Assembly (NCBI RefSeq): GCF_013812825.1
Contig: NZ_JACCSU010000045.1
Span: 83,740 to 147,739 of the forward strand
DNA length: 64,000 nucleotides
Direction of reading: 5' to 3'
Source: Sphingomonas sp.
Lineage (GTDB): Bacteria; Pseudomonadota; Alphaproteobacteria; Sphingomonadales; Sphingomonadaceae
This document shows, piece after piece, positions 8,395 through 15,481 of this stretch. The notes beneath the pieces are model-generated. The model did not search any database and was not told the DNA's origin. It saw nothing but the letters and a program-made list of their open reading frames with translations. Made by a program: the position numbers and the translations under genes. How positions within the stretch are numbered: position 1 is the stretch's first letter; every line of letters begins with the position of its first letter.

Positions 8395-8502
8395 CCCGAG
8401 ACTTGTAGCCGCGAGGAGTAAAGGCGCGCTTAAAGGCTTGGGCGCGCTGGACCGGCTTGTTATGGGGCTGTGCCGCAGCACGCAGCCTAACCGGGGAGCA
8501 AC

Positions 8503-8652
8503 ATGGCCGAAGACGAGTCGATCCTGGTCAATCCTCCGACCCAGGACGTCGCCCACCACGTCCGCGATTACTCGCGCTTCACCCAGCTTCTGAAATGGGG
8601 CGCGATCATCTCGTTCATTACGGCGCTCTTCGTCATGATGATCATCAGCTAG
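8503..8652 (+). CDS. aa3-type cytochrome c oxidase subunit IV-like small membrane protein
   Basis: MAEDESILVNPPTQDVAHHVRDYSRFTQLLKWGAIISFITALFVMMIIS, directly upstream of pntAA; RBS-like ccggggagcaac. Confidence 0.75.
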   Translation: MAEDESILVNPPTQDVAHHVRDYSRFTQLLKWGAIISFITALFVMMIIS

Positions 8653-8684
8653 GCCGCATTCCAGCCGATGAAATCCACCCGCCG

Positions 8685-9809
8685 ATGAAAATCGCGATTC
8701 TCAAGGAGCGCGCGCCCGGGGAGACCCGCTGCGCCGCGATTCCGGAGACGGTGAGGAAGTTCGCCGCGTTGGGCGCCGACGTCGCGGTCGAGAGCGGAAC
8801 GGGCGACAAGGCGCTGATTTCCGACCAGGATTTCGAAGCGGCTGGAGCCAAGGTCGGCCCACGGGCGGAGGTGCTCAAGGGCGCCGAAGCGATTTTGTGC
8901 GTGACCGGCCCCGATCCCGCGCAGCTGGACGGAGCGGAGCAAGGCGCGCTGCTGGTCGGTGGCCTCGACCCGGCGGGGCGGCGCGAAGCGATCGCCGGCT
9001 ATGCCGCCGCCGGACTCGAGGCGCTGGCGATGGAATGGATGCCGCGCATTTCCCGGGCCCAGTCGATGGACATCCTGTCGTCCCAGTCGAACCTCGCCGG
9101 CTACAAGGCGGTGATCGCGGCGGCCGCGGCCTACGGACGGGCGCTGCCGATGATGATGACCGCGGCGGGCACGGTCAGCGCCGCCAAGGTCTTCGTCATG
9201 GGCGTCGGGGTGGCCGGGCTGCAGGCGATCGCGACCGCTCGCCGGCTGGGAGCGCAGGTCAGCGCCACCGACGTGCGCTCAGCCACCCGCGAGCAGATCC
9301 TGTCGCTGGGCGCAAAGCCGGTCTTCGTCGAGAATGTCGCCGGCATCGAGGGCGAGGGCGCGGGCGGCTATGCCACGGAGATGTCGGAGGAATATCAAAA
9401 GGCGCAGGCCGAACTGGTGTCGAGCCACATCGCCAAGCAGGACATCGTCATCACCACCGCACTGATCCCGGGCAAGCCGGCGCCGCGGCTGATCAGCGAT
9501 GCGCAGCTGGCGACCATGCGGGCGGGGAGCATCGTCGTCGACCTCGCCGCCGAGGCTGGCGGCAATGTCGAAGGCTGCGTCGCCGGCGAGCGGGCGCGGC
9601 GTCATGACGTCACCATCATCGGCGCCAGCAATCTCGCCCGCAGCCTGCCGGCGGACGCGTCGGCGCTGTTCTCGCGCAATGTCTACAATTTCCTCAGCGC
9701 CTTCTGGGACAAGGAGGCCAACCGCCCGCTGCTCCCGGACGACGACGAGCTGGTCCAGGGCATCCGGCTGACCCGCGGCGGCAAGGTGGTCCACGAGCGG
9801 TTGGCCTAG
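8685..9809 (+). CDS. pntAA: NAD(P) transhydrogenase subunit alpha part 1
   Basis: MKIAILKERAPGETRCAAIPETVRKF..., NLAGYKAVI, VMGVGVAGLQAIATARRLGA. Confidence 0.95.
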   Translation: MKIAILKERAPGETRCAAIPETVRKFAALGADVAVESGTGDKALISDQDFEAAGAKVGPRAEVLKGAEAILCVTGPDPAQLDGAEQGALLVGGLDPAGRREAIAGYAAAGLEALAMEWMPRISRAQSMDILSSQSNLAGYKAVIAAAAAYGRALPMMMTAAGTVSAAKVFVMGVGVAGLQAIATARRLGAQVSATDVRSATREQILSLGAKPVFVENVAGIEGEGAGGYATEMSEEYQKAQAELVSSHIAKQDIVITTALIPGKPAPRLISDAQLATMRAGSIVVDLAAEAGGNVEGCVAGERARRHDVTIIGASNLARSLPADASALFSRNVYNFLSAFWDKEANRPLLPDDDELVQGIRLTRGGKVVHERLA

Positions 9810-10294
9810 GCGGCGGGGCCAGGCTCCTCATCGCGCAAGCGGCAGAGATCGACCCAGCGGCGTCCGACCAGCTCGAACAGGCGCTCGGGAGTCAGTCGCA
9901 CCGAGGCATTGAGCGACCCGGCCGCGGGATAGATGCAGTCGAACGGCCGCAGGCTGAGGTCGAGGTAGACGGGGAGGGGAGTCGCGAGGCCGAACGGGCA
10001 GACGCCGCCGATCGGGTGGCCGGTGAGCGCCAGCGTCTCCTCCGGGCCCAGCATGCGCGGCCGGGCGCCGAACTCGGCCTTGCACTTGGCATTGTCGAGC
10101 CGGGCGTCGCCGCGCGCGACCAGCAGGAACACCTCGTCTCCGGCACGAACCGCCAGAGTCTTGGCGATCCGCGCCGGTTCGACGCCCAGAGCCAGGGCCG
10201 CGGCGTCGACCGTAGCGGTGCTTTGCGCGACCTCGATCAGTTCGACGTCAGGCGCGTGCGCGGCCAGCCACATGCGGGCCGATTCAAGGCTCAT
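9806..10294 (-). CDS. YbaK/EbsC-family aminoacyl-tRNA deacylase
   Basis: ALGVEPARIAKTLAVRAGDEVFLLVARGDARLDNAK...GHPIGGVCPFGL. Confidence 0.88.
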   Translation of the reverse strand: MSLESARMWLAAHAPDVELIEVAQSTATVDAAALALGVEPARIAKTLAVRAGDEVFLLVARGDARLDNAKCKAEFGARPRMLGPEETLALTGHPIGGVCPFGLATPLPVYLDLSLRPFDCIYPAAGSLNASVRLTPERLFELVGRRWVDLCRLRDEEPGPAA

Positions 10295-10311
10295 CGCAAT
10301 GGCTCAAGCCA

Positions 10312-10734
10312 TCATTCCCCGGCGAGATGCACGATGATCTGTCGCGGCGACGGCTCGCGGCGGTGTTCGAACAGATAAATGCCTTGCCAGGTGCCGAGCA
10401 TCATCCGGCCGGACTGGACCGGGATCGCCAGCTGGGTCTGGGTGAGCGCCGCGCGCAGGTGCGCCGGCATGTCGTCCGGCCCCTCGTCGTTGTGGGCATA
10501 GGCCGACGGATTTTCGGGCGCGATCCGCGCGAAATAGGCTTCGAGGTCGCTGCGCGCCGCCAGCGCCGCATTCTCCTGGATGAGCAGGGAGGCCGAGGTA
10601 TGGCGGCAGAACAGGGTCAGCAGCCCATCGCCGATCTCCTGCGTCGAAAGCCAGGCCGCGACCTTCGGCGTGATCTCGTAGAGTCCCTGTCCCTGAGCCT
10701 CGACGGTGATGGTCCCGAGCGAATGGCGCAGCAT
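10312..10734 (-). CDS. YjbQ family protein (secondary thiamine-phosphate synthase)
   Basis: LLTLFCRHTSASLLIQENA, HNDEGPDDMPAHLRAALTQTQLAIPV, GTWQGIYLFEHR. Confidence 0.92.
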   Translation of the reverse strand: MLRHSLGTITVEAQGQGLYEITPKVAAWLSTQEIGDGLLTLFCRHTSASLLIQENAALAARSDLEAYFARIAPENPSAYAHNDEGPDDMPAHLRAALTQTQLAIPVQSGRMMLGTWQGIYLFEHRREPSPRQIIVHLAGE

Positions 10735-10960
10735 TCCGCCCGACTAGTCCAATGTCGCAGGCAGGGCCAGCGGCTCGAATCCGGGGAAACGCACAGCCGA
10801 GTCGTGATCGCAACGACCGGACAGACGGCCGCCGCTTCGATCAGGAGCGAGGCATGCACGCCAGCGCACAACCGACGCCAGGCAGGCGGGCAGCAGGACG
10901 CACGAAAGCGTCCGCTGATTCGCGGACGCTTCGTCTATCACCTTGAAAAATCAGCGTGAA

Positions 10961-10979
10961 AGGGGCGACAAGCGCCCCT
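10961..10979 (-). terminator. Candidate hairpin terminator downstream of the 27-aa ORF
   Basis: aggggcg-acaag-cgcccct stem-loop 9 nt past the stop codon of the minus-strand sORF; only weak T tracts follow. Confidence 0.45.
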
Positions 10980-10988
10980 CGGTCGCGC

Positions 10989-11072
10989 TTAGCCGCTGGC
11001 TCCGGTGCTGCTCTCTCCGCTGCCCCACCACCAGGACCACCAGCCACCACGAGTGGGCTTTTGCTTGGTCAT
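10989..11072 (-). CDS. Candidate 27-aa Trp-rich peptide MTKQKPTRGGWWSWWWGSGESSTGASG
   Basis: ATG...TAA on minus strand, AAGGGGATGTTCG RBS upstream, sigma70-like promoter ~40 nt upstream, hairpin after stop; not in supplied ORF list. Confidence 0.55.
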   Translation of the reverse strand: MTKQKPTRGGWWSWWWGSGESSTGASG

Positions 11073-11118
11073 CGAACATCCCCTTTTTGCACGACTGCCC
11101 CAGATGACAGTTGAGGGG

Positions 11119-11147
11119 ATATTAACCTTAAAAAACGTGGTTAGCAA
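11119..11147 (-). promoter_or_regulatory. Sigma70-like promoter for the Trp-rich sORF (TTGCTA-17 nt-TAATAT)
   Basis: Reverse complement TTGCTA ACCACGTTTTTTAAGGT TAATAT; AT-rich island in GC-rich genome. Confidence 0.5.
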
Positions 11148-11311
11148 TCGATTAACCAAGCCGCCGCGGCGTCAGCCTCCAATCAAAGTGAAGCACGTGC
11201 CCAGCGCAGCGGCGAGCTAGCGACCGTGACTTATCGATCGGTGAGATCAGGGCGGCCGGTACTGCGGCCACAGATTGGATTAGGGGCTGGCTCGAAGGCC
11301 GCCCCGCGACG

Positions 11312-13618
11312 TCAGGCGACTCGCGAGTGCCGCGACGAGGACAGGCGCCTCAGCAGGCTCTCCAGGCTCATCGGCCGGCCAATGACGAAGCCTTGCCCCA
11401 CATCGCAACCCATTTCGACCAGTGCGTCCAGCACCAAATGGCTCTCGACTCCTTCGGCGACAACCTTGCGCCCGAGCGAATGGGCAAGAGCGATCGTGGA
11501 TTGGACCATGACCTGGTCGCTGCGGTTGTCGAGCATGGCCTTCACGAAGCTTTGGTCGATCTTGATCTCGCTTGCTGGAATCTTCTTCAGATAGTCGAGT
11601 GTGGAAAGCCCGGTGCCATAATCATCGATCGAAATCTTCACTCCGAACTCGCGCAGCGCGGCGAGCATGTCGAACGCCGACTCCCGGCCGGCGAGGGCGG
11701 CAGTTTCGGTGAGCTCGAGGGTCAGCAGTTCCGGCGGCAAGTCGTGACGGGCAAGCATCGCCTGCAGGCGAAGGACGAAACCCTTGTCGGCCAGCAGGCG
11801 CGCGGAGAGGTTCACCGCCATCCCGAAGCCGCGCTGCTTGCGGTTTACGGCCGCGGCGGCGCCGATCGCCTGGTCGAGCACAAAGTCGGTGAGCTTGCCA
11901 ATGCGGTCGTGCTGCTCGGCGGCAGTGATGAACTCTGCGGCTGAAATCGGTCCCTTCTCCGGGTGAGTCCAGCGAGCGAGCGCTTCGGCGCCGACGACCT
12001 TGCGCGTCTTCAGGTCGAGCTTGGGCTGGTAGGCTACCCACACCTCGCCTTTGTCCACGGCGCTGTCGAGCTGGCTCAGCATCGACAGCTTCCACGACGC
12101 GTCAGCGAGCATTTCCGGATCGTGATACTTCCACTTCAGGCCGTCGTGGGCCGCTTCCTCGGCGGCGACCAAGGCGCACGCCAGCCGATTCGACAGGGAT
12201 CGGCCGCTGCCGATCTCGACGCCGAAGCTGATGGACAGGTCGACCTGTTGAGCGCCGACGCGCGCCGGGTTGCGCAACAAGGCGTTCAGCGCCTCGATGT
12301 GATTTCCGAACGGCAGTCGCGCTTCCTCGAACCAGGCGAAAATTCCCCCATCGCCCTGATAGAGAGTCCGGTCAGGCGCGCCGACCCTGAGCCGGGAGAC
12401 AATCTGTTCGACCAGCTGCCGTTCCTGCTCCGCCGGAAGGGCCGCGACGATTTCTTCGTAATTCAAGACGCGGGCAGCGATTAGCGCCTGATTCCTTCCC
12501 TCCCGGTTCGACCGAAGCGCGCTCAAATTGGGAAGCCCCGAAATGGCGTGGACCAGACCCCGGCTGCGAATGCTCCGCCGCCCCAGGACTGCCCACACCG
12601 CCAGGATCACGAACAAGGCCGGGGTCACATCGACGAAAATCAAGTAGGCTTCGAGGCCGACCGGCGCGAGCAGCAGGGCGACGGTCGCTGCGCCCAGGTC
12701 CCAGTTGTGGCTGCGCCGCCGCTGCCGAAACAGCACCAGCGCGACAAGCGCGATCGCCAGCAGGAATGGGGGAACCCAGCCAAGGTAGACCGGCTTGCCC
12801 TGCTTCAGGGTCTCGGCGCCGAGGATCTGGATGTACACCCCGCCCATTTGTCCGACGCCGGGAATGAAATATTGATCCCCGATGGCCTTGGTGTCGGTGC
12901 CGATGACCACGTCCTTGCCTTTGACCAGACGCGGGTCGAATCGGCCGGCAAGTACCTTGTCGGCGGCGATCTGGGGAATGCTCGTCGGCTTGACGGAATA
13001 GTCGACGATGAACTCGCCAGTGCTGCCCTCGTGGCCGGCGAGGCTCGCCGCGAATGACGGCAGGCGCTTGCCCCCGACATCGACTGAATAAGGCAGGCGC
13101 CACACTGCGTTCTGATAATTGTAGGTGACGTTGATCGAGGCGAGCTGCGCGCCATTGCCGAACATTCCAAGCGGGCCAGGGCTCGATTGCACCATCCCGC
13201 TTGGCCCGGACTGAGCGCGAACCGGGAGGACCGTTCGTCCCGACCGGCGGATCGCCTCGGAAAGCATCCGGTCGTCCTGCGGATTGCTCCGAGTCTCGAC
13301 CAGTATGTCGAAGAAGATGCGTTTGGCCCCCGCCTCGGTGAGCCGATCGATCATCTCGGCATGCTGGCGCCTCGGCCAAGGCCAGCGGCCGACGGTCTGA
13401 AGCGCCCGATCGTCGATGGTCACGAGCACGATATCGCCGCTCGCCGAGTGGGGGTGAAAGTTGTTGCGGCTCTTGCGAAGCCCGTCTTCGGCCAGCTCGC
13501 CGAAGCCAATGACGCCGAAGATCAATCCGACCACTGCAGTCCACAGCAGCAGCCCGAATGGCGATGGCCCCGAATTCTGTTTCTTTCGCGACGGCACCGG
13601 CGCCCGTTCCCTTCCCAC
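11312..13618 (-). CDS. CHASE2 - degenerate GGDEF - EAL c-di-GMP phosphodiesterase
   Basis: N-terminal CHASE2-type sensor, TM helices (LLAIALVALVLF), EALARW, LELTETAAL, SIDDYGTGLSTLDYLKKIPASEIKID, VAEGVES. Confidence 0.88.
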   Translation of the reverse strand: MGRERAPVPSRKKQNSGPSPFGLLLWTAVVGLIFGVIGFGELAEDGLRKSRNNFHPHSASGDIVLVTIDDRALQTVGRWPWPRRQHAEMIDRLTEAGAKRIFFDILVETRSNPQDDRMLSEAIRRSGRTVLPVRAQSGPSGMVQSSPGPLGMFGNGAQLASINVTYNYQNAVWRLPYSVDVGGKRLPSFAASLAGHEGSTGEFIVDYSVKPTSIPQIAADKVLAGRFDPRLVKGKDVVIGTDTKAIGDQYFIPGVGQMGGVYIQILGAETLKQGKPVYLGWVPPFLLAIALVALVLFRQRRRSHNWDLGAATVALLLAPVGLEAYLIFVDVTPALFVILAVWAVLGRRSIRSRGLVHAISGLPNLSALRSNREGRNQALIAARVLNYEEIVAALPAEQERQLVEQIVSRLRVGAPDRTLYQGDGGIFAWFEEARLPFGNHIEALNALLRNPARVGAQQVDLSISFGVEIGSGRSLSNRLACALVAAEEAAHDGLKWKYHDPEMLADASWKLSMLSQLDSAVDKGEVWVAYQPKLDLKTRKVVGAEALARWTHPEKGPISAAEFITAAEQHDRIGKLTDFVLDQAIGAAAAVNRKQRGFGMAVNLSARLLADKGFVLRLQAMLARHDLPPELLTLELTETAALAGRESAFDMLAALREFGVKISIDDYGTGLSTLDYLKKIPASEIKIDQSFVKAMLDNRSDQVMVQSTIALAHSLGRKVVAEGVESHLVLDALVEMGCDVGQGFVIGRPMSLESLLRRLSSSRHSRVA

Positions 13619-13788
13619 TGCGTCGCTCCACCTGATGCCGTGAAAAGGTTATCAAATCGGAAACCGCTTTTGGGTTAATCGCACTGTGCGCCGCTGGATT
13701 TTCGCCCTCTCGACAGCGTTCACCGGAGCCGCCACAAAGCGCCGCTGGTCAGCGTGCGCTCCATGCTGACGAGATAAAGGGAGGGCCA

Positions 13789-14079
13789 ATGGATTTCGTC
13801 GCGATCCTGTCGATCTTCGTCCTCGCCTGCTTCGTCGGCTATTTTGTCGTCTGGTCGGTGACCCCGGCGCTTCACACGCCCTTGATGTCGGTGACCAACG
13901 CGATCTCCTCGGTAATCGTCGTCGGGGCGCTGATCGCCGCGGCCGCGGCTGGGAGCCCGACCGCGAAATGGCTCGGCCTGGTGGCCGTCGCTTTGGCATC
14001 GGTGAATATCTTCGGCGGCTTTGCGGTCACGGCGCGAATGCTGGCGATGTACAAGAAGAAGGAGCGCCGCGATGCATGA
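13789..14079 (+). CDS. pntAB: NAD(P) transhydrogenase subunit alpha part 2
   Basis: Small polytopic protein VTPALHTPLMSVTNAISSVIVVGAL...FGGFAVTARMLAMYKKK. Confidence 0.93.
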   Translation: MDFVAILSIFVLACFVGYFVVWSVTPALHTPLMSVTNAISSVIVVGALIAAAAAGSPTAKWLGLVAVALASVNIFGGFAVTARMLAMYKKKERRDA

Positions 14080-15481
14080 GGTGGCGGCCGTGCCGGACTG
14101 GGTGCTGCTCGCCTATCTGATCGCCGGAGTCTGCTTCATCCTGGCGCTGCGCGGCCTGTCGCACCCGGAAACCAGCCGCCGCGGCAATCGCGCCGGGATG
14201 GTCGGCATGGCCATCGCCGTCGTCACCACGCTCGCCATCCACGAGATCGGCTCGATCGCCGAGATCGCAGCGGCGATCGCGATTGGCGGCGCGATCGGCC
14301 TCGTCACCGCTCGGCGGATCCAGATGACCGCGATGCCGCAGCTGGTCGCGGCGTTCCACAGCCTGGTCGGAATGGCCGCGGTGCTGGTCGGGGCGGCGGC
14401 GTTCCTCAATCCCACCGCGTTCGACATCACCGACGCGGCCGGTGCGATCCTGCCGGTCAGCCGGGTCGAAATGGGGCTTGGGGTGGCGATCGGCGCGATC
14501 ACCTTCTCGGGCTCGGTGATCGCCTTCCTCAAGCTGAACGGCAACATGTCGGGAGCGCCGATCCTGCTTCCCGGCCGCCATGTGATCAACCTCGGCACGC
14601 TCGCCGCGATCGTCGGCCTGATCGCTTATTTCACGCAGGACCAAGCCCCGTGGATCTTCTGGACCGTGACCGCGCTCGCCTTCGCCATCGGCTTTCTGCT
14701 GATCATCCCGATCGGCGGCGCCGACATGCCGGTCGTGATCTCGATGCTCAACAGCTACTCGGGCTGGTCGGCGGCGGCGATGGGCTTCACGCTCCACAAC
14801 AGCGCGATGATCATCACCGGCGCGCTGGTCGGAAGCTCGGGCGCGATCCTTTCCTACATCATGTGCCGGGCGATGAACCGAAGCTTCATCTCGGTGATCG
14901 CCGGCGGCTTCGGCGCGGTCACCAGCGGCGGCGATGCCGCGGCGATCGACCGGCCGTGGAAGCGCGGCTCGGCCGAGGACGCGGCGTTCCTTCTCAAGCA
15001 GGCCGAGCAGGTGATCATCGTTCCCGGCTACGGAATGGCGGTGTCGCAGGCCCAGCATACGCTGCGCGAGATGGCCGATCTGCTCAAGGAAGCAGGCGTG
15101 CGGGTCAAATATGCGATCCACCCGGTCGCAGGGCGAATGCCCGGGCACATGAACGTGCTGCTGGCCGAGGCCAACGTGCCCTATGACGAAGTCTTCGAGC
15201 TCGAGGACATCAACAGCGAATTCGCGCAGACCGACGTCGCGTTCGTGATCGGCGCCAACGACGTTACCAACCCGGCCGCCAAGACCGACAAGAGCTCGCC
15301 GATCTACGGGATGCCGGTGCTCGATGTCGAAAAGGCGCGCACCGTGCTGTTCGTCAAACGGTCGATGGGCGGCGTCGGCTACGCCGGCGTCGACAACGAA
15401 CTGTTTTATCGCGACAACACCATGATGCTGCTCGCCGACGCCAAGAAGATGGTAGAGGAGATCGTCAAAGCGCTCGCCTAG
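14072..15481 (+). CDS. pntB: NAD(P) transhydrogenase subunit beta
   Basis: MHEVAAVPDWVLLAYLIAGVCFILALRGLSHPETSRRGNR...VIVPGYGMAVSQAQH...IGANDVTNPAA; start ATG 14072 overlaps pntAB stop. Confidence 0.95.
   Translation: MHEVAAVPDWVLLAYLIAGVCFILALRGLSHPETSRRGNRAGMVGMAIAVVTTLAIHEIGSIAEIAAAIAIGGAIGLVTARRIQMTAMPQLVAAFHSLVGMAAVLVGAAAFLNPTAFDITDAAGAILPVSRVEMGLGVAIGAITFSGSVIAFLKLNGNMSGAPILLPGRHVINLGTLAAIVGLIAYFTQDQAPWIFWTVTALAFAIGFLLIIPIGGADMPVVISMLNSYSGWSAAAMGFTLHNSAMIITGALVGSSGAILSYIMCRAMNRSFISVIAGGFGAVTSGGDAAAIDRPWKRGSAEDAAFLLKQAEQVIIVPGYGMAVSQAQHTLREMADLLKEAGVRVKYAIHPVAGRMPGHMNVLLAEANVPYDEVFELEDINSEFAQTDVAFVIGANDVTNPAAKTDKSSPIYGMPVLDVEKARTVLFVKRSMGGVGYAGVDNELFYRDNTMMLLADAKKMVEEIVKALA

Follow-up and report, generated by a model that had tools for sequence, protein, structure and literature searches.

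The 27-residue reading frame treated here lies in a 64,000-nucleotide stretch of Sphingomonas sp. DNA (hereafter the window) and, judged from its sequence, is a member of a conserved, unannotated family of small proteins of 11 to 41 residues, which extends across one bacterial family, probably the Sphingomonadaceae in the broad sense. The coding frame and a short core are conserved, the gene has a covarying leader predicted to mask the ribosome-binding site (RBS) and is followed by a terminator, and its linkage to one orthologue group of EAL genes is near-absolute (Table 1). Peptide, masked ribosome site, terminator and probable enzyme partner appear as one compact unit across the bacterial family.

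The first-pass annotation of the window had proposed a Trp-rich peptide gene with its own promoter, RBS and hairpin. The frame was found as described, with five Trp codons, and so were the AAGGGGA element, which lies 6 nt upstream of the ATG, and the GC hairpin, which begins 9 nt after the stop. The masking of the RBS and the link to a CHASE2-EAL gene were absent from that annotation and were found in the present analysis.

Table 1. Features of the peptide locus in the window, with the evidence for each
Feature	Position	Strand	Evidence
27-aa small-protein ORF, MTKQKPTRGGWWSWWWGSGESSTGASG	10989..11072	minus	sequence; family profile match E=1.3e-7; selection across family
Ribosome-binding site AAGGGGA	11079..11085	minus	sequence; equivalent position in relatives
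Masking stem, 5' strand UAUCCCCU	11114..11121	minus	fold; covariation test
Masking stem, 3' strand AGGGGAUG, includes RBS	11077..11084	minus	fold; covariation test
Inner leader hairpin ACUGUC...GGCAGU	11094..11111	minus	fold; inner hairpin recurs in relatives
Conserved GGTTAA element just 5' of masking stem	11122..11127	minus	GGTTAAY in 81/114 loci vs 0-2 in shuffles
CtrA-like box TTAATCGATTGCTAAC, includes earlier -35 TTGCTA (11147-11142)	11140..11155	minus	only TTAA-N7-YTAAC site in the 64 kb window; strict box in 28/114 loci vs 0-1 in shuffles
First post-stop hairpin GAGGGGCG..., short T tail	10960..10980	minus	fold
Second post-stop hairpin AGCGTCCGC...GCGGACGCT, short T tail	10905..10932	minus	fold; terminator in 106/114 relatives' loci
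CHASE2-EAL protein, c-di-GMP phosphodiesterase type, probable partner	11312..13618	minus	Pfam EAL 5e-66, CHASE2 6e-31; directly 5' of peptide in 110/114 loci

A conserved coding frame and aromatic core

When a 301-nt region of the window was searched at the DNA level against 71 genomes of the same genus, some 50 nt (about 11159-11108 in the window) turned out to be strongly conserved in many of them, often 5' of a YjbQ gene. On the 3' side of this segment, most of the genomes have an RBS of the AGGGGA type and an ATG from which a peptide such as MKKTKSARGFWTWLMGGGWTGTGGGG can be read. A profile built from 20 genus peptides (A1) matched 53 of the 71 genomes at E<1e-3, and eleven further ones were recognised to carry weak copies in syntenic position, among them MWSWLFGCGWR (G018) and MWSYLFGCGWR (G006), so that the peptide is present in 64 of the 71. 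Significant profile members were also found in other genera of the same bacterial family (for example MAKRTKQPVRGFWDWLLGGGWSN and MKTKKAVYPAPTKRGFWDWLMGGGWKNG), and peptides of 11-16 residues occur around distant EAL orthologues (MFRSIWDWIYS, MFGSIWDWIFN, MWDIWEWIFRS, MFRSIWDWIFDN and MWNFWEWLLGDGHRKR). Two genomes, G024 and G054, carry two tandem copies each (L201 and L202, respectively), every copy having its own leader and the two copies of a pair lying behind the same EAL gene. Outside the bacterial family, two samples of the class, comprising 337 and 385 genomes, yielded no convincing case of the peptide or of a close relative of the EAL protein, and a class-wide EAL search at E<1e-70 returned only members of the same family. 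The class-wide HMM matches that fell outside it (L246-L251) looked like pieces of longer or unrelated frames and were set aside.

The aligned core of the family reads [GS]-[FI]-W-[DENS]-W-[LVI]-[LMFW]-G, which may be summarised as [F/I]W[D/E/N/S]W[L/I/F][L/F/M]G or, more briefly, as FWDWLxGG. Peptide length and the residues outside the core vary widely, and so does net charge, the N terminus being basic in many members; the number of Trp residues also varies, while the non-Trp core residues, an acidic one among them, are conserved. The first-pass annotation had looked to the string GGWWSWWWG at syntenic loci in relatives; conservation at these loci was indeed observed for the core FWDWLxGG, but the literal WWSWWW or GGWWSWWWG does not extend beyond the window and its nearest relatives. 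Within the genus, the exact WWSWWW motif occurs in the window only, plus TGG-repeat noise, and the exact DNA pattern, searched in a collection of 84,980 species, gave 63 stretches with no convincing relative among them; a match titled Sphingomonadales (L043) is read in a different frame within a longer gene and was rejected as chance. Since the exact motif gives only noise in other genomes, the finding would not have survived a search for it, and by the strict criterion of the first-pass annotation it would have seemed unconserved. Three members of the family had no family match in Pfam or NCBIfam. A gene conserved family-wide can stay invisible because gene finders skip ORFs of 11-30 codons.

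A comparison of synonymous with nonsynonymous changes had been proposed as a check on the coding status of the frame. Among 55 close pairs of peptide genes, mean pS was 0.33 and mean pN 0.073, and the substitutions at codon positions 1, 2 and 3 of close pairs numbered 123, 109 and 313, that is, mostly third positions. In the closest relative, the frame is kept and the length differs by whole codons (MTKQKPTRGIWDWWWGGGKDDTGSDG). Both a conserved frame and constraint on the amino acids, as expected of a small protein, were thus found; the substitution pattern indicates that selection acts on the peptide, and this coding-type conservation makes it almost certain that the first-pass annotation was right to propose a real, translated gene. 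That the frame arose by chance within a conserved intergenic element might be argued from its shortness and from the chance occurrence of the exact WWSWWW DNA string elsewhere. The probability of this is negligible, because the frame, start, RBS, upstream block and core are conserved at the syntenic place and substitutions fall mainly in third positions, and the profile matches and the linkage described below contradict it as well.

The leader and the terminator

In the window, the leader is predicted to fold such that UAUCCCCU pairs with AGGGGAUG around the inner hairpin (-16.8 kcal/mol, z -2.2). In the leaders compared, the C-rich strand just 3' of GGTTAA complements the RBS and covaries with it (GTCCCC/GGGGAC, TGCTCCC/GGGAGCA and TCTCCTG/CAGGAGA). 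The MAFFT alignment of the leaders is not structure-aware, and an alignment-free partner-swap test was therefore used, in which the duplex energy of the 5' strand of a leader with its own RBS is compared with that obtained with the RBS of other loci. Over 114 loci, the native energy was -10.49 kcal/mol against -7.92 kcal/mol after swapping, and 0 of 1000 permutations reached the native value. The signal was present separately in the genus (61 loci) and in other genera (53 loci), and no signal was obtained with promoter, coding and post-stop segments, which served as three controls. For 25 loci around distant EAL orthologues, mostly outside the first set, the corresponding values were -9.5 and -7.66, with 0 of 2000 permutations. 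Since the permutations do not model relatedness, their number is not a strict probability, and the agreement between separate locus sets is the better argument for an RBS-masking stem.

The predicted pairing of the RBS had a median of 0.80 against 0.62 in shuffled leaders and peaks 4-9 nt 3' of GGTTAA, and the letters of the leader outside the pairing drift among relatives. An RBS stem kept by covariation was thus found, and it is very likely that the leader masks the RBS. Rfam models gave no match over the window at the gathering score, and a local E-value search gave a chance-level match only. At one locus at least (L293), the RBS hairpin and promoter-like elements are kept and the aromatic core has been lost from the ORF (possibly a GTG-started MIDLIAIALGSRRGS).

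A dual-function small RNA, whose transcript would be mainly a regulatory RNA with the peptide as a secondary product, would agree with the persistence of leader and terminator around ORFs of only 11 codons, and with L293, where the hairpin outlasts a degenerate peptide. The clear constraint at the amino-acid level, the constant aromatic core and the drift of leader letters outside the pairing render this reading improbable.

An intrinsic terminator within 120 nt of the stop was found in 106 of 114 loci, compared with 33 of 342 shuffled sequences. In most relatives the terminator is canonical; the window is one of the eight loci without a terminator by this measure, its two strong hairpins 3' of the stop both lacking a good T tail (TTTC and TTTCG). 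The gene downstream of the peptide is not conserved, being YjbQ/YbaK in part of the genus only, with other neighbours in other genera. These findings bear on the Trp-responsive leader suggested in the first-pass annotation, namely a Trp-sensing attenuator of a downstream gene, which would account for the five Trp codons and for the hairpins 3' of the ORF. This reading can practically be dismissed, as nearly all loci have a terminator after the ORF, neither a conserved gene nor Trp genes lie downstream, and it is the non-Trp residues of the core that are conserved while Trp number varies.

The CHASE2-EAL neighbour and the CtrA-like box

In the translation of the CHASE2-EAL gene upstream of the peptide gene, the motifs EALARW and DDYGTG are readable. 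A homologue lies directly 5' and on the same strand in 110 of the 114 peptide loci, mostly 80-280 nt away; the peptides behind this count were mostly found by genome-wide profile search and not by locus. In a converse survey of 63 CHASE2-EAL loci from 121 genomes of the family, the peptide was clear at 39, weak at 4 and missing at 20; 17 of these 20 belong to one paralogue clade (SH-aLRT 96), and nearly all are without the upstream box. Three genomes, all from genus g2, have the peptide, together with promoter and leader, behind an LpoA-like gene, and the orthologous EAL gene lies elsewhere with no peptide behind it. Since these three genomes retain both apart, peptide and EAL gene are kept together in a genome even when unlinked. 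In several ultra-short lineages (L299, L301-L304, L306 and L307), the stop codon of the EAL gene lies within a GGTTAA element, so that the gene, at its 3' end, shares letters with promoter-like sequence.

The other window neighbours of the peptide gene are YjbQ (UPF0047) and a YbaK-type editing domain. The earlier statement that no modification enzyme is adjacent thus stands, and the RiPP-like precursor that had also been considered is disfavoured, there being no leader/core split either. In the window, a pntA-like transhydrogenase frame (8457-9809, plus strand) is split from pntAB/pntB-like frames (13789-15481, plus strand) by the minus-strand genes for YbaK, YjbQ, the peptide and CHASE2-EAL (assigned by reading translations); the pnt operon in 8457-15481 looks interrupted by this inverted block.

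The promoter of the first-pass annotation (TTGCTA, 17 nt, TAATAT) is present, but its description as near-consensus was too generous: it agrees with 8 of 12 sigma-70 positions and is not called by a standard scan. Its -35 hexamer is part of the CtrA-like box, and its -10 hexamer (11124-11119) borders or overlaps the 5' strand of the masking stem. In the complete genome of a relative (G024), there are 8 TTAA-N7-YTAACCA sites and 0 of the reversed pattern. They are found not only before the peptide gene but also 5' of dnaA, of a gene for a Flp-pilus-type (T2SSE) ATPase, of a DUF4402 gene and, in divergent orientation, of one for an ShlB-type transporter. In the window's own genome, the motif is not enriched, its 3 sites against 2 for the control pattern being too few to judge. 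A BTLCP (LapG-like) protease gene (L310, 571-1485, minus strand) and a DUF4402 gene lie beside the other two of these sites, one of which is placed just 5' of the protease gene. BTLCP proteases are elsewhere tied to c-di-GMP-controlled adhesion. The distribution of the putative sites resembles a CtrA regulon of surface attachment, and CtrA may bind at them. Sphingomonas melonis is reported to tolerate the loss of CtrA (cited in PMC8116508).

Taken together, a functional link of the peptide to the CHASE2-EAL protein or its pathway is probable, while direct action on the EAL protein is put forward only tentatively. A serious, though less probable, alternative is that the peptide acts on another target, for instance a protein of the envelope, the pilus or the cell cycle within the same regulon, and that the linkage reflects shared regulation or history. 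The gene has promoter elements and a terminator of its own, it lies far from the EAL gene in the three g2 genomes, and CtrA-like sites are also found 5' of other surface genes, all of which would fit such a target; the linkage to a single EAL orthologue group in 110 of 114 loci, the absence of the peptide beside EAL paralogues and the joint retention of the unlinked pair argue against it.

The membrane-active peptide of the first-pass annotation fared less well. A type I toxin-like, membrane-active or antimicrobial Trp-rich peptide with a masked mRNA would explain a short, Trp-rich product, the hidden RBS and the basic N terminus of many members. However, the hydrophobic core is short, and with about six hydrophobic positions the members of 11-16 residues are too small to cross a membrane; the acidic core residue is conserved, whereas net charge is variable; and a single stable chromosomal locus is conserved together with the enzyme across the family. 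Such an activity is accordingly very improbable.

Proposed mechanism and comparison with known systems

The best explanation of the whole, held with about even confidence, is a leader-gated micro-peptide that acts most likely on a protein of the c-di-GMP/CtrA pathway, with the EAL enzyme as the leading candidate. A short transcript would begin at the promoter with CtrA-like sites, possibly under the control of CtrA, and readthrough from the EAL gene may also occur. In the transcript, the 8-bp stem around the inner hairpin would hide the RBS, so that efficient synthesis of the peptide would be expected only after some trigger had opened the leader or allowed it to be bypassed. Transcription would usually stop at the terminator right after the ORF, and the product of the gene would be the peptide itself, which has about 11 residues around a FWDWL/IWDWI core in some lineages and would most likely serve as an intracellular short binding motif. 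This aromatic-acidic-aromatic docking motif would most likely target a protein of the c-di-GMP/CtrA pathway, in the first place the adjoining membrane-bound CHASE2-EAL phosphodiesterase, whose activity would be tuned at the switch between the motile and the attached state.

The more specific proposal, that an unmodified peptide of about 11-27 residues under an RBS-masking RNA switch serves across the whole family as the dedicated regulator, acting in trans, of a membrane c-di-GMP phosphodiesterase, must be regarded as doubtful. If it is true, the peptide would be among the smallest conserved genome-encoded regulatory proteins, and if the pairing is functional, it would offer a genetically simple case for the minimum size of a working protein and for the tuning of c-di-GMP enzymes by peptides.

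A survey of c-di-GMP genes in five alphaproteobacterial orders contains neither CHASE2 nor a small protein in its text (PMC9756655). Nothing was found in the literature on FWDWL, on CHASE2-EAL in Sphingomonas or on small proteins from Ribo-seq in Sphingomonas.

SpoVM, MgtS and CydX are bacterial small regulatory proteins of under about 50 residues, which often partner one larger protein. The present family is like them in that the ORF is short, conserved and unprocessed and has an RBS of its own, but no sequence relation was found, its smallest members are much shorter at 11 residues, and an RBS-masking leader covaries here. In the type I toxin mRNAs tisB and hok, the ribosome sites are occluded, and a tiny hydrophobic-aromatic peptide beneath an RBS-hiding leader is common to both systems; here, in contrast, there is no membrane-spanning stretch, an acidic residue stands in the conserved core, the link to a c-di-GMP enzyme is fixed and, to our knowledge, no antisense RNA is known for the gene. 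With RNA thermometers and other RBS-masking leaders, the RBS-pairing stem is shared, but the leader described here has no Rfam match and stands over a small-protein gene. The streptococcal WW peptides of the ComS/XIP type are short and have closely spaced Trp residues; the likeness is only one of resemblance, as a secretion signal and a nearby Rgg-type receptor are missing here and the core is different. The leader peptide of the trp operon, trpL, comes from a short ORF that contains Trp codons and is followed by hairpins, which is also the arrangement seen here, but in the present case no Trp genes lie downstream, the unit is terminated and a non-Trp core is conserved. The small-protein family described here is new within a general kind that is known, and it is unusual for the size of its members, for the masked leader and for an enzyme partner that stays the same.
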